From: Tsuneonella amylolytica
GTDB taxonomy: Bacteria > Pseudomonadota > Alphaproteobacteria > Sphingomonadales > Sphingomonadaceae
Assembly (NCBI RefSeq): GCF_003626915.1
Contig: NZ_CP032570.1
Location: 1,612,001-1,676,000 of the forward strand
Length of the DNA: 64,000 bases
Reading direction: 5' to 3'
Part shown: positions 19,677 through 26,465 of the stretch, one piece after another
How positions within the stretch are numbered: position 1 is the first letter of the stretch
Layout of the letters: each line of letters starts with the position of its first letter
Notes under the pieces: model-generated
Told to the model about the DNA's origin: nothing
The model's database searches: none
What the model saw: the letters and a program-made list of their open reading frames with translations, nothing else
Program-made: the position numbers and the translations under genes

Positions 19677-20711
19677 ATGTCAACCGTCTTCAAGGTCCCG
19701 GCCGCGCGCGCGCAGGCCCCCGGCGCTCCAACCGGAGCGGGCGAAACCGCGTCCGGTCCGGCCCCGCGCGTGGAGGGCGGGCCGCGCATCGGTGTGATCT
19801 ACAACCCGCGCAGCCACCGCAATCGCAAGCTGCAGCAGGAAGTCGAGGCGCTGCCCGGCGTCAGCGTCGCGGCACCCGAGCGGCGCGGGGAACTGCGCGG
19901 CGTCCTCGAAGGCTTTGCCGCCGACGGCGTGACCTGCATTGTCGTGAGCGGAGGCGACGGCACCGTGCGCGACGTGCTGACCGCCGGCCTGCCCGTATTC
20001 GGCGATGCGTGGCCCGCGCTCGCGGTGATTCCGGCGGGCAAGACCAACGCGCTCAACGCCGACCTCGGTGCACCGAAGGACTGGACGCTGAAAGGTATCC
20101 TGGGTGCGCTGGAGGCGGGCAACCGCGCGGTTCGCCGGCCGCTGATCGTGCGCGACCGGGACGGCGGCGGCGAGCTCGCCGGTTTCATCTTCGGCGCGGG
20201 CGTGTTCACAACGGCGGTCGCCGCCGGGCAAGACGCCCACCGGCTGGGCGCGTTCGACAGCCTCGCAGTCGGCGCGACGGCGGTCTGGGGGATGGTGCAG
20301 GCGCTGCTGGGCAGCGATCGCAATCGCTGGCGGCGCGGCGAACGTATGGCGATCCGGACCGGCGCGGACCGCGCGCCCCTGCCGCGCAGCGACCGCGGCG
20401 ATCCGGCCCGCCGTACCTTCATCCTCGCGATGACGGTCGAGCAGCTGCCCGCCAACATCCGCCCCTTTGCCGACCTCGAGGGCATGAAGCTCATCGCGCT
20501 CGACTATCCGACCCGCAGTCTGCTGGCGCGGGCGCCCGCGATCGCGCGGGGCTGGTGGCCGGCCCACGCAGAGCGGCGCGGACTCCACCGCTGCGCGACC
20601 GATCGCATCGAGATCGACCTCGGCGACCGGTTCATTCTCGACGGCGAGGCGTTCCCGGCCGGCTCGTACGAGATCGTGCCGGGCCCCGCGTTGTCGTTCG
20701 TCGTTCCGTGA
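19677..20711 (+). CDS. Diacylglycerol/lipid kinase family protein
   Basis: A 344-residue member of the DAGK catalytic-domain family (DgkB/YegS type), expected to phosphorylate a lipid such as diacylglycerol at the inner membrane face. The N-terminal ~35 residues are low-complexity Ala/Pro/Gly; the kinase domain starts at RIGVIYNPRSHRN (37-49), with the nucleotide-binding SGGDGTVRDVL at 91-101 and IPAGKTNALNADLG at ~118-131. A late FILDGEAF resembles the second-domain family motif. Its stop overlaps the next GTG start by four bases (GTGA), so it is translationally coupled to the Tam41-like gene. Confidence 0.9.
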   Translation: MSTVFKVPAARAQAPGAPTGAGETASGPAPRVEGGPRIGVIYNPRSHRNRKLQQEVEALPGVSVAAPERRGELRGVLEGFAADGVTCIVVSGGDGTVRDVLTAGLPVFGDAWPALAVIPAGKTNALNADLGAPKDWTLKGILGALEAGNRAVRRPLIVRDRDGGGELAGFIFGAGVFTTAVAAGQDAHRLGAFDSLAVGATAVWGMVQALLGSDRNRWRRGERMAIRTGADRAPLPRSDRGDPARRTFILAMTVEQLPANIRPFADLEGMKLIALDYPTRSLLARAPAIARGWWPAHAERRGLHRCATDRIEIDLGDRFILDGEAFPAGSYEIVPGPALSFVVP

Positions 20712-21610
20712 CGAGGTCGCTTGAGGCGCGCATTGCAACCGCGCTCGATACACCGGTGCATCCCGAAGTGAAGGCGATCGCCGCCCGGCTGGCGAGCGAG
20801 GCCGGAGCGTGCGCGGTGCTGTTCTACGGATCGAACCTGCGCACCGGCTCGCTCGAGGGTGTGCTCGACTTCTACGTGCTGCTGCCGGGGGCGCAGCGCG
20901 AACGGATCTGGCCCCGGGTCTCCTACCGCGAATGGGAGACCGCGTCGGGGACCTTGCGTGCGAAAATAGCGACGATGGCGCTGGAAACGTTTGCCCGCGC
21001 GGCGGCCGGCCGGTCGCGCGACACCACGATCTGGGCGCGCTTCGTGCAACCGGCGGGGCTGGTGTGGGTACAGAGCGAGGCGGCGCGCGCGGCGGTGCTG
21101 GCGGCGGTCGCCGATGCGGCGAAGACCGCCGGCCGGTTCGCGGCGGCGCTCGGCCCGCCGGGCGGAACCGCGGCCGATTACTGGCGCGCGCTGTTCCGCG
21201 CGACCTACGAAGCCGAATTCCGAGTCGAGAAGCCGGGGCGCGAGAACGACATCCTGTCGGTCAACGCGGCCCATTTCGACGGCCTGCTGCCGCTGGCATG
21301 GACGGCGGACGGGCTCGCGTTCGCGCGCGACGGCGACGTGTTGCGGCCAAACCTGCCCGACGCACGGCGGGCGCAGATACTGCGCGCCTGGCGCACGCGA
21401 GCACGCCTCGGCAAGCCGCTCAACCTCCTGCGTCTCGCCAAGGCGAGTACGACGTTCGACGGTGCCGCGGCCTATGCCGCGTGGAAGATCGAGCGGCATA
21501 CCGGCATCGCGGTGCACCTGACGCCGTGGCGCGAGAAACATCCGTTCCTTGCCGCCCCCGGCGTGCTGTGGCGGGTGTGGCGGGCGCGCAGCCGCGCCGG
21601 TCAGCGGTAA
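20708..21610 (+). CDS. Putative Tam41-like phosphatidate cytidylyltransferase
   Basis: A 300-residue protein with no signal or membrane segment, starting at GTG within the kinase stop (GTGA). Several stretches recall the Tam41/Mmp37 family (mitochondrial CDP-DAG synthase, nucleotidyltransferase fold): VLFYGSNLRTG (Y40-G41-S42) then VLDFYVLL (D54-F55); GTLRAKIATMALETFA (81-96), where Tam41 has an 'IKYGVIS' strand-helix; IWARFVQP (108-115); and YEAEFRVEKPGREN then AAHFDGLL (167-194). Order and spacing are preserved. If correct, the product makes CDP-DAG from phosphatidate and CTP, directly after the kinase that makes phosphatidate. This is a memory-based comparison, not an alignment. It converges on the DUF2141 gene with a 10-base overlap. 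Confidence 0.6.
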   Translation: MTRSLEARIATALDTPVHPEVKAIAARLASEAGACAVLFYGSNLRTGSLEGVLDFYVLLPGAQRERIWPRVSYREWETASGTLRAKIATMALETFARAAAGRSRDTTIWARFVQPAGLVWVQSEAARAAVLAAVADAAKTAGRFAAALGPPGGTAADYWRALFRATYEAEFRVEKPGRENDILSVNAAHFDGLLPLAWTADGLAFARDGDVLRPNLPDARRAQILRAWRTRARLGKPLNLLRLAKASTTFDGAAAYAAWKIERHTGIAVHLTPWREKHPFLAAPGVLWRVWRARSRAGQR

Positions 21611-22095
21611 CGCATCGCGATACGGATGGACTTCACGCCGTTCACCGCGAACCCCGTCTTGCTCACGCTCGGCTTGCCGAGGTTGAAGATGTTGATCGAG
21701 GGGTTGTTCGACATCGCGCCGCCGTCGCCCAGAAGATCGGTCTCGCCGTCTCCGTCGAGGTCGTGGCGCACCGCGACCGCGTAGCTGCCGTTGGCGGGCA
21801 CCGGCAGGCAGAAGCTCATGGAGCCAGCCTTGGCCGGTGCCTCGACACGGTTCAGCCAGCGTCCCTTCTTCAGCCAGTCGCCTTCGGTCGCCCGGTAGAC
21901 CTGCGCGCGCACGCGCCCGGTCGACGCCTTGACGCCGTCGACGGTCACCATGACCGCCGGGCCGGCCCCGCGGCAACGGCTCATGTCGTTGGAAATCTTG
22001 TTGCGATACTGCGCCGCGGCCGGGCTTGCGACGCCGAGCGCGAGTGCGCTCGCAGCGAGAAGAATGCCGATAGGGCGGATGGTCTTGGCGATCAT
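21601..22095 (-). CDS. Exported DUF2141 protein
   Basis: A 164-residue secreted protein: signal peptide residues 1-29 (cleavage after AAA), then a DUF2141 domain. Visible signatures are [40 protein letters not shown] (an Asp-rich loop like those that bind calcium) and the terminal IRIAMRYR strand. DUF2141 proteins occur widely as single-domain exported proteins with no known activity. ATG 22095 is chosen because it begins a proper signal peptide. Its 3' end overlaps the convergent Tam41-like gene by 10 bases. Confidence 0.85.
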
Positions 22096-22325
22096 GGAAT
22101 GTCCCTGTGGCGGGGGCGCGCGCGAACTGTGCCGGCGGGCAAGACCCCCTGTTTCGCTGCACAAGGTGCCCGATGGGGCCTGAATTTGCGCTTAATTGGG
22201 ACAGCGCCCCGATTTGCGCCGGTTCGGGCCGCGGCAATGTGGAAAAGACCGGGCGATTCGCTTGTGCCGCGTGGCGGGCAAGGGTTAAGCGCCCGTCAGG
22301 CATAGGAGCCCCTGCAGCACGCATC

Positions 22326-24875: not shown

Positions 24876-26465
24876 GTGACCGATGTGACCATCAGGCGGG
24901 CGCTGCTTTCGGTGTCCGACAAGGAAGGGCTTGCAGCGCTCGGCAGCACGCTGGCCGACGCGGGTGTCGAGCTGGTCTCTACCGGCGGCACCGCCAAGGC
25001 GCTGCGTGACTGCGGGCTGGAAGTGCGCGACGTGAGCGACCTCACCGGCTTTCCCGAGATGATGGACGGACGGGTGAAGACGCTGCATCCTATGGTCCAC
25101 GGCGGCCTGCTGGCCGTGCGCGACGATCCCGAACACGCCGCCGCGATGGACGCGCACGACATCGGCGCGATCGACCTGGTGGTCGTCAATCTCTACCCAT
25201 TCGAGGCGACGGTCGCGCGCGGGGCCGACCGCGACGAGATCATCGAGAACATCGATATCGGCGGGCCGAGCATGGTGCGTTCGGCGGCGAAGAACCACCG
25301 CTACGTGACCATCGTGACCGATCCTGCCGACTACGACGAGCTGATCGCCGAACTCGGCGCGCACGACGGCGCCACCACGCTTGATTTCAGGAAGCGGCTG
25401 GCGGCCAAGGCATTCGGCGCGACCGCTGCCTACGACAGCATGATCAGCCAGTGGTTCGCCTTCGCCGACCAGCAGCAGCAATTTCCCGACCTCCTCGCTG
25501 TCAACGGCCGCCGGGTCACCGAACTCCGCTACGGCGAGAACCCTCATCAGAAGGCCGCGCTCTATATGCCGGTGGGCCCGCACGGTTCGGGCATCGCGCA
25601 GGCGAGCCAGCTGCAGGGCAAGGAACTGTCCTACAACAACTATGCCGACGCCGACGCCGCGCTGGAACTCGTCGCCGAGTTCGCCGGACAAGACCCCGCG
25701 GTGGTGATCGTCAAGCACGCCAACCCGTGCGGCGTTGCGCAGCGGCCGACCCTGCTCGAGGCATGGCGCGAGGCGCTCGCCTGCGACGACGTGTCGGCGT
25801 TCGGCGGGATCGTCGCGGTCAACACGGTCCTCGACGGCCCGACGGCGGAGGCGATCTGCGAGATCTTCACCGAAGTCGTCGTCGCTCCCGATGCGGACGA
25901 CGATGCCAAGGCGGCGTTCGCCAAGAAGAAGAACCTGCGGCTGCTCCTGGCCAGCGATCTGCCGGATCCGCGTCGCGGCGGTCTGGCGATAAAGCCGATC
26001 ACCGGCGGACTACTGGTCCAGACCCGCGACAACGGGGCGATCACCGAAGCGGACCTGACGGTCGTGACGCAGCGCCAGCCGACGGCGCAGGAACTGAAGG
26101 ACTGCCTCTTCGCCTGGACCGTGGCGCGCCATGTGAAGTCCAACGCGATCGTCTATGCCAGGGACGGGGCGACGGCCGGTATCGGCGCGGGTCAGATGAA
26201 CCGCCGCGATTCGTCACGCATCGCGGCGATGAAATCGGCAGAGGCGGCGCAGAAATTCGGCTGGGACCAGCCGCGCACGGTCGGCAGCGCCGTCGCTTCG
26301 GACGCGTTCTTCCCGTTCGCCGACGGATTGCTGGCCGCAGCCGAAGCCGGGGCGACCGCGGTCATCCAGCCGGGCGGATCGATCCGCGACGAGGACGTGA
26401 TCAAGGCCGCCGACGAGGCGGGCTTGGCGATGGTGTTTACCGGGATGCGCCACTTTCGGCATTGA
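24876..26465 (+). CDS. purH: Bifunctional AICAR transformylase / IMP cyclohydrolase
   Basis: Carries out the last two steps of purine synthesis, AICAR to FAICAR to IMP, using 10-formyl-THF (supplied by FolD). The 529-residue protein shows the MGS-like IMP cyclohydrolase domain first ([34 protein letters not shown]) and the transformylase domain after residue ~195, with catalytic [10 protein letters not shown] and the terminal [12 protein letters not shown]. It starts with GTG 24876, 7 bases after the previous stop. It is probably last in the rpe-heparinase-like-purH operon. Confidence 0.98.

Follow-up and report, generated by a model that had tools for sequence, protein, structure and literature searches.

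In a 64,000-nucleotide stretch of the Tsuneonella amylolytica genome (contig NZ_CP032570.1, positions 1,612,001 to 1,676,000; hereafter the window), two overlapping genes encode a lipid kinase and a nucleotidyltransferase-fold protein. An earlier, sequence-only reading had taken them for a diacylglycerol (DAG) kinase coupled to a bacterial relative of Tam41, the mitochondrial synthase of cytidine diphosphate-diacylglycerol (CDP-DAG). Here, the pair is interpreted as a probable cpgB-cpgC unit of bacterial phosphosphingolipid synthesis, whose two products together would give sphingolipids their charged headgroups. Its features are listed below by window position; the alignments, family members and locus L140 named in the list are introduced in the following sections.

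19677-20711, plus strand: putative CpgB-type lipid (ceramide) kinase, 344 residues; from its DAGK_cat domain and its profile closeness to cluster kinases
20708-21610, plus strand: putative CpgC-type Tam41-fold nucleotidyltransferase, 300 residues, GTG start; from an AlphaFold model, structure matches and family alignments A1 and A2
20708-20711, plus strand: GTGA overlap, in which the transferase gene starts with GTG and the kinase gene stops with TGA
19950-19961, plus strand: GGDG adenosine triphosphate-binding motif of the kinase, residues 92-95; by reading of the sequence, motif as named in PMC10331486
20825-20833, plus strand: Tyr40-Gly41-Ser42 of the transferase, nucleotidyltransferase GS motif; from conservation in 155 family members
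20867-20869, plus strand: Asp54 of the transferase; 155 of 155 family members
20963-20965, plus strand: Lys86 of the transferase; 155 of 155; via L140, it aligns with the lysine in the fission-yeast Tam41 segment KYGV
21032-21052, plus strand: W109-x-R111-F112-x-Q114-P115 of the transferase; counterpart of Tam41 AGRFQKP in the alignment via L140
21215-21223, plus strand: E170-x-R172 of the transferase; each residue in 155 of 155 family members
21542-21601, plus strand: predicted C-terminal basic amphipathic helix of the transferase, residues 279-298; from the AlphaFold model

The partner gene had been assigned to the DAGK family, and its product indeed matches DAGK_cat (PF00781), scoring 48.6 bits where the cut-off is 23.6. 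The kinase carries the GGDG motif and no CxxxCxxC motif, its two cysteines lying far apart. Scored with a profile of 15 kinases from sphingolipid clusters, it reached 168 bits, and two other DAGK_cat proteins found in its own genome reached 33 and 18 bits; by this profile measure, it is the most CpgB-like DAGK_cat protein of its genome. In the 300-residue product of the second gene, the motifs pointed out earlier lie at the residues claimed for them (YGS at 40-42, LDF at 53-55, TLRAKIATM at 82-90, YEAEFR at 167-172 and AHF at 188-190), and the GTGA overlap with the DAGK-family gene was likewise found where described. In agreement with the same source, no membrane helix is evident in the transferase, the highest 19-residue Kyte-Doolittle mean being 1.33. 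The hydrophobic moment at its C terminus is 0.50 for residues 283-300, the second highest of the protein, and 0.35 for residues 279-296, and the modelled basic helix may make contact with the membrane. The pair does not look foreign to the genome, since its third-position guanine-plus-cytosine content (0.875 and 0.860) resembles that of the open reading frame at 24876-26465 (0.864), which is purH, as judged from matching gene order in Qipengyuania. A DUF2141 gene (21601-22164, minus strand) converges on the transferase gene with a 10-base overlap at the gene end; a DUF2141 neighbour is also annotated in Qipengyuania citrea.

Fold and conserved residues of the transferase

Two family alignments, with the profiles built from them, were used, one of 22 members (A1) and one of 44 members (A2). 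An AlphaFold model of the window transferase, made from A1, had a mean predicted local distance difference test score (pLDDT) of 90.3, and a Foldseek search of the PDB with this model placed fission-yeast Tam41 first (E = 1.5e-7). VIA-align, run over the top 1000 Foldseek chains, gave Z = 18.1 for FbTam41 of Firmicutes (7ecd) over 217 residues at 3.0 Å and 12% identity, followed by 6ig4 (Z = 16.4) and 6ig2 (Z = 16.2) over 211-215 residues; the next fold after Tam41, an aminoglycoside nucleotidyltransferase, came at Z = 7.3. A second model, made from an overlapping alignment for a distant family member (L137; 29% identical; pLDDT, 94.4), gave VIA-align Z scores of 19.9 for 7ecd, 17.4 for 6ig2 and 17.3 for 6ig4, then 7.3. 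With this model, Foldseek returned all three Tam41 entries on top (E values, 3.9e-10 to 2.3e-8), 7ecd at rank 5. The fold match to Tam41 on which the sequence-only reading had made its claim depend was therefore significant with two models. Kinship to the aminoglycoside nucleotidyltransferases was considered and dropped, only the nucleotidyltransferase domain being in common (about 105-116 residues; Z ≤ 7.3).

At the sequence level, kinship to Tam41 appears in members of A2. Four of its 44 members match PF09139, the family of mitochondrial Tam41/Mmp37, at E ≤ 1, all in one part of the profile; at E ≤ 0.001, three do so, one of them above the cut-off of 24 bits (L137, 28.8 bits; L134, 23.2; L140, 21.8). 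L118 scored 11.6 bits (E = 0.18), which alone is not significant. Single-sequence searches with the window transferase returned nothing in NCBIfam and only chance-level matches among PDB sequences, and PDB profile searches with A1 and A2 returned no Tam41, only weak nucleotidyltransferase matches (E = 0.06-0.4). Searched alone against the PDB with phmmer, the L140 protein matched 6ig2 at E = 1.6, weak taken singly. The sole PDB sequence match to A2 at E ≤ 10 is 9xbd_E, a small solved nucleotidyltransferase-domain protein, in the region of the GS motif (E = 0.056). When genomes were searched with PF09139, there was no match in 14 control genomes or in the T. amylolytica genome and one, L140, below the cut-off, in 398 Pseudomonadota genomes; because nearly no genome matches, this search says little about absence.

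Identities to Tam41 range overall from 11 to 18%, and the closest solved structure is the Firmicutes enzyme 7ecd. Collectively, we hold with high confidence that the window transferase is homologous to Tam41; it is a divergent branch of that family and not a standard PF09139 member. It resembles mitochondrial Tam41/Mmp37 (6ig2 and 6ig4) in fold and in a single conserved aspartate at the site, and differs from it in having no Pfam match, in its bacterial sphingolipid context and in its substrate, here probably ceramide-1-phosphate. Bacterial Tam41 is already known from Firmicutes and reported to make CDP-DAG, and homologues are stated to occur in proteobacteria (PMC11646218).

Conservation was measured by taking one member per locus (209), which left 158 distinct sequences with a long match and 155 after reduction at 95% identity. 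Twelve positions are invariant in all 155: Y40, G41, D54, P69, K86, W109, R111, Q114, E170, R172, Y256 and K260. S42 is kept in 154; it belongs to the GS motif, a defining feature of Tam41. Within the W109-x-R111-F112-x-Q114-P115 segment, P115 is kept in 154 members and F112 in 150. The usual acidic motif of the nucleotidyltransferase site is D-x-[DE]; in this family, the second acidic place, position 56, holds tyrosine in 153 of 155 members. The sequence-only reading would have fallen had Ser42 and Asp54 varied among relatives, and since both are conserved, it stands on this point.

Genomic company of the gene pair

Conservation of the pair, which the earlier reading had put forward as something to survey, was found in both sets of loci. 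The first set of 101 loci comprised the best 80 of 370 contig matches (close relatives), 20 loci from elsewhere in the class and L140. In 99 of them, the kinase gene immediately precedes the transferase gene and shares its strand, with profile ends -50 to 200 bases apart; the two misses are L152, which is cut by a contig end and shows a kinase remnant once the length limit is lowered, and L155, which has no kinase. In a later set of 17 loci chosen for diversity, the kinase adjoins in 15.

Thirty-nine carrier genomes fall outside the family of T. amylolytica and are all labelled as belonging to different orders of the class; the 20 class loci were taken from these genomes together with flanking stretches of at most 8 kb, and some loci are cut by contig ends. 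Neighbouring genes were called by clustering of open reading frames, family scans and profile searches. These loci hold serine palmitoyltransferase (18 of 20), fatty acyl-AMP (adenosine monophosphate) ligase (17), acyl carrier protein (17), a CerR-like epimerase (15), LptF (15), LptG (15), the kinase (19), a metallophosphoesterase (12) and a CpgA-like CDP-alcohol phosphatidyltransferase (11). The genes run in the order ligase, epimerase, carrier protein and palmitoyltransferase, followed on the opposite strand by the Tam41-like gene and the kinase, which matches the Caulobacter order from CC_1165 to CC_1160, the Caulobacter side being compared by its described order, without strands. Among the later 17 loci, of which seven come from the same 39 carriers and one (L203) is a wider view of the already counted L140, a palmitoyltransferase match was found in 10, one of them diverged. 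In other families of the window's own order, the pair abuts the palmitoyltransferase operon (L210, L211, L212, L214, L215 and L216).

Across 385 alphaproteobacterial genomes, the A1 profile found family members in 42, including T. amylolytica, and serine palmitoyltransferase, called by NF047599 at E ≤ 1e-100, was present in 49. The palmitoyltransferase occurs in 41 of the 42 transferase carriers, again including T. amylolytica, and in G392, the only carrier without it, a diverged homologue scoring 260 bits lies next to the transferase gene. Fisher's test for this co-occurrence gave 5.6e-46, a value that ignores the kinship of the genomes and treats two draws of 385 genomes as one set. The sequence-only reading had also asked whether cdsA is present alongside the pair: CdsA (PF01148) was found in 41 of the 42 carriers, the one miss being a genome that is 77% complete. 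Since both the palmitoyltransferase and CdsA occur in 41 of 42 carriers, the transferase gene goes with sphingolipids and is not a stand-in for CdsA; a replacement role was dropped on this count.

The T. amylolytica genome is a single contig of 2.79 Mb. Serine palmitoyltransferase lies in it at 1257412, immediately preceded by an acyl carrier protein; the genome also has a fatty acyl-AMP ligase (870.8 bits, at 1072287) and a separate cdsA at 2375201. In Sphingomonadales, a scattering of such sphingolipid genes has been described (PMC11324152).

With the window protein as query, a family member was found in 46 of 60 genomes searched, a spread that, with the conserved residues, goes beyond chance. 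Among 398 Pseudomonadota genomes, the A2 profile found members in 27, of which two do not belong to the class (T. amylolytica is included in both the 46 and the 27). The closest named relative in the search is from Tsuneonella litorea, at 78% protein identity, very near records possibly lying outside the search. Within the genus, seven of 10 other genomes hold the transferase, and it was not found in G001, G003 and G004; within the family, G071 and G204 carry serine palmitoyltransferase and no transferase. As some genomes of the same genus and family are without it, this branch has apparently been lost here and there. Seventeen plasmid records hold the gene, the listing giving "hypothetical protein" under the match and, in some, neighbouring genes. 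On two IncP-typed plasmids, a CpgC-like gene accompanies genes of a phosphosphingolipid cluster close to mercury or sulfonamide resistance genes: NZ_CP065408.1 of Diaphorobacter sp. JS3051 (L199), predicted to be conjugative, and NZ_CP073662.1 of Pseudomonas sp. JS425 (L200), predicted to be non-mobilizable. Such plasmid-borne clusters suggest that the phosphosphingolipid pathway can move between species.

The proposed reaction of the pair

In Caulobacter, CpgB (CC_1160/CCNA_01218) acts as a ceramide kinase; it contains an LCB5/DAG kinase domain, and its deletion leaves phosphatidate levels unaffected (PMC10331486). Its partner CpgC (CC_1161/CCNA_01219) is required for ceramide phosphoglycerate; it has an InterPro domain suggesting a CDP-DAG synthase, and the authors considered a nucleoside diphosphate (NDP)-activated ceramide in 2024 (PMC11324152). 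The mechanism of the CpgC step is described as unidentified in a 2025 paper (PMC12275187) and in a May 2026 preprint (PMC13228409). No solved mechanism was among the literature matches listed, and a search for "CDP-ceramide" with "bacteria" found no paper, most subscription journals being outside its coverage. As in the window, a DAGK-domain ceramide kinase stands with a partner gene in Caulobacter, and relatives of the pair have as neighbours the genes for the palmitoyltransferase, the carrier protein, the epimerase and the acyl-AMP ligase, which matches the description of the Caulobacter cluster. Unlike in Caulobacter, the window pair stands alone, away from the palmitoyltransferase gene, in a genome in which no CpgA was found. 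We infer orthology between the window pair and cpgBC from gene order and profile rather than from the Caulobacter sequence itself. A further enzyme of the Caulobacter pathway, CpgD (CCNA_01210), a CTP (cytidine triphosphate):phosphoglycerate cytidylyltransferase, also uses CTP; unlike CpgC, it is of the COG1213 sugar-phosphate type, and the CDP-glycerate that it forms serves for the second headgroup unit (PMC12275187).

With a probability of roughly two in three, the pair is a cpgB-cpgC unit in which CpgB makes ceramide-1-phosphate and CpgC, a divergent CTP transferase of the Tam41 family, activates it to CDP-ceramide. CpgB would phosphorylate ceramide, and CpgC, as a peripheral protein possibly touching the membrane with its basic C terminus, would bind CTP in its nucleotidyltransferase domain. 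There, YGS and D54 would hold the phosphates and the metal, and K86, R111 and their neighbours are candidate contacts to CTP or to the lipid phosphate. Ceramide-1-phosphate would then receive cytidine monophosphate (CMP) from CTP, with CDP-ceramide and pyrophosphate as the products, much as Tam41 turns phosphatidate into CDP-DAG, and a further enzyme would exchange CMP for the headgroup, which is glycerate in Caulobacter. The analysis shows the fold, the conservation, the pathway and the pairing of the genes; the donor, the acceptor, the product and the residue roles in this scheme are all inferred. Ceramide and ceramide-1-phosphate are favoured as substrates because of the gene neighbourhood, the co-occurrence with the palmitoyltransferase and the genetics of cpgB and cpgC in Caulobacter, and the Tam41-like fold of the models suggests a CTP-based lipid activation.

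Among the alternatives, the best surviving one, which we consider unlikely, is that CpgC acts on ceramide-1-phosphate with another nucleoside triphosphate, activates the headgroup instead or joins glycerate in one step. In its favour, the donor nucleotide is not readable from the sequence, and no separate headgroup-swap enzyme is known. However, to judge by their titles, the solved Tam41 structures 7ecd and 6ig2 contain CTP, though 6ig4 lacks it, and one-step attachment of glycerate to ceramide-1-phosphate has been called energetically not very favourable (PMC11324152). Somewhat less likely again is the route first proposed for the pair, in which a diacylglycerol kinase supplies phosphatidate and a Tam41-like enzyme converts it to CDP-DAG, as salvage or as a second glycerophospholipid route beside CdsA. 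The Tam41 fold and the DAGK_cat domain are what this route would predict, yet 41 of the 42 carriers already have CdsA, and the transferase tracks serine palmitoyltransferase and lies in its cluster. The proposed conversion of DAG through phosphatidate to CDP-DAG therefore probably named the wrong substrate, neighbourhood, co-occurrence and genetics pointing to ceramide. That the transferase is a fold without catalysis, which assists the kinase or presents the lipid, is very improbable: of the acidic pair only D54 remains, but Tam41, an active enzyme, likewise retains just one of the three usual acidic residues (PMC11646218), the residues at the site show little or no variation, and three loci have the transferase without an adjacent kinase.

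Several observations weigh against the CDP-ceramide reading. The Tam41 call, which stood by fold (Z of 18.1 and 16.4 against 7.3) and through Pfam in 3 of 44 relatives, did not stand for the window protein in Pfam, where it matches no family at E ≤ 1. Even at E ≤ 10, there is no match to PF09139 among the 22 A1 members, the identity of the window transferase to Tam41 is only 11-12%, and 7ecd is absent among the best 50 PDB matches listed by Foldseek for the window model. In vitro, DAG too is a substrate of CpgB, with comparable activity (PMC10331486), which also favours the CDP-DAG route. Eight genomes have serine palmitoyltransferase and no transferase, and at L207 (genome G182; the modelled member L137), L204 (G540) and L155 (G245), the transferase gene has no kinase beside it; in these genomes, the kinase may lie elsewhere. 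The window pair itself lies about 373 kb from the palmitoyltransferase gene, amid unrelated genes. The headgroup swap is without an assigned enzyme. Finally, a CpgA-type protein was not found in the T. amylolytica genome, the best of its three CDP-alcohol phosphatidyltransferases scoring 26 bits with a CpgA-like profile that gave 425-569 bits for full-length proteins of its source loci and 390-445 bits in three other loci. On this result, T. amylolytica may end up with a final lipid other than the Caulobacter one; the analogous case of Zymomonas (PMC11324152) suggests that it could be the one-glycerate lipid, or else a different one. The third of these phosphatidyltransferase-like proteins (L170; G000:C1:2345987-2346412, minus strand; about 230 residues with an assumed start) is only weakly CpgA-like (best E = 0.01) and so no more than a candidate for a headgroup step.

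Implications for bacterial sphingolipids

Bacterial Tam41, the cpgBC genes and the idea of an NDP-ceramide drawn from an InterPro hint are already known. New, as far as the literature was searched, are the fold evidence from two models and the conserved site of the CpgC family, the tie to serine palmitoyltransferase across genomes and the specific reaction proposed. It is a long shot that CpgC is a separate, alphaproteobacterial sphingolipid branch of the Tam41 family making CDP-ceramide, from which the mitochondrial Tam41 of the cardiolipin route descends by a change of lipid substrate. The finished lipid supports the survival of Caulobacter without lipopolysaccharide (PMC12275187), and genes for ceramide phosphoglycerate influence sensitivity to polymyxin and detergent (PMC11324152). 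The Tam41 fold and the conserved site make the step from ceramide-1-phosphate to ceramide phosphoglycerate testable as one defined reaction, that of CTP with ceramide-1-phosphate, and, if this reaction takes place, bacterial sphingolipid headgroups and the mitochondrial cardiolipin route would be linked through one enzyme family.

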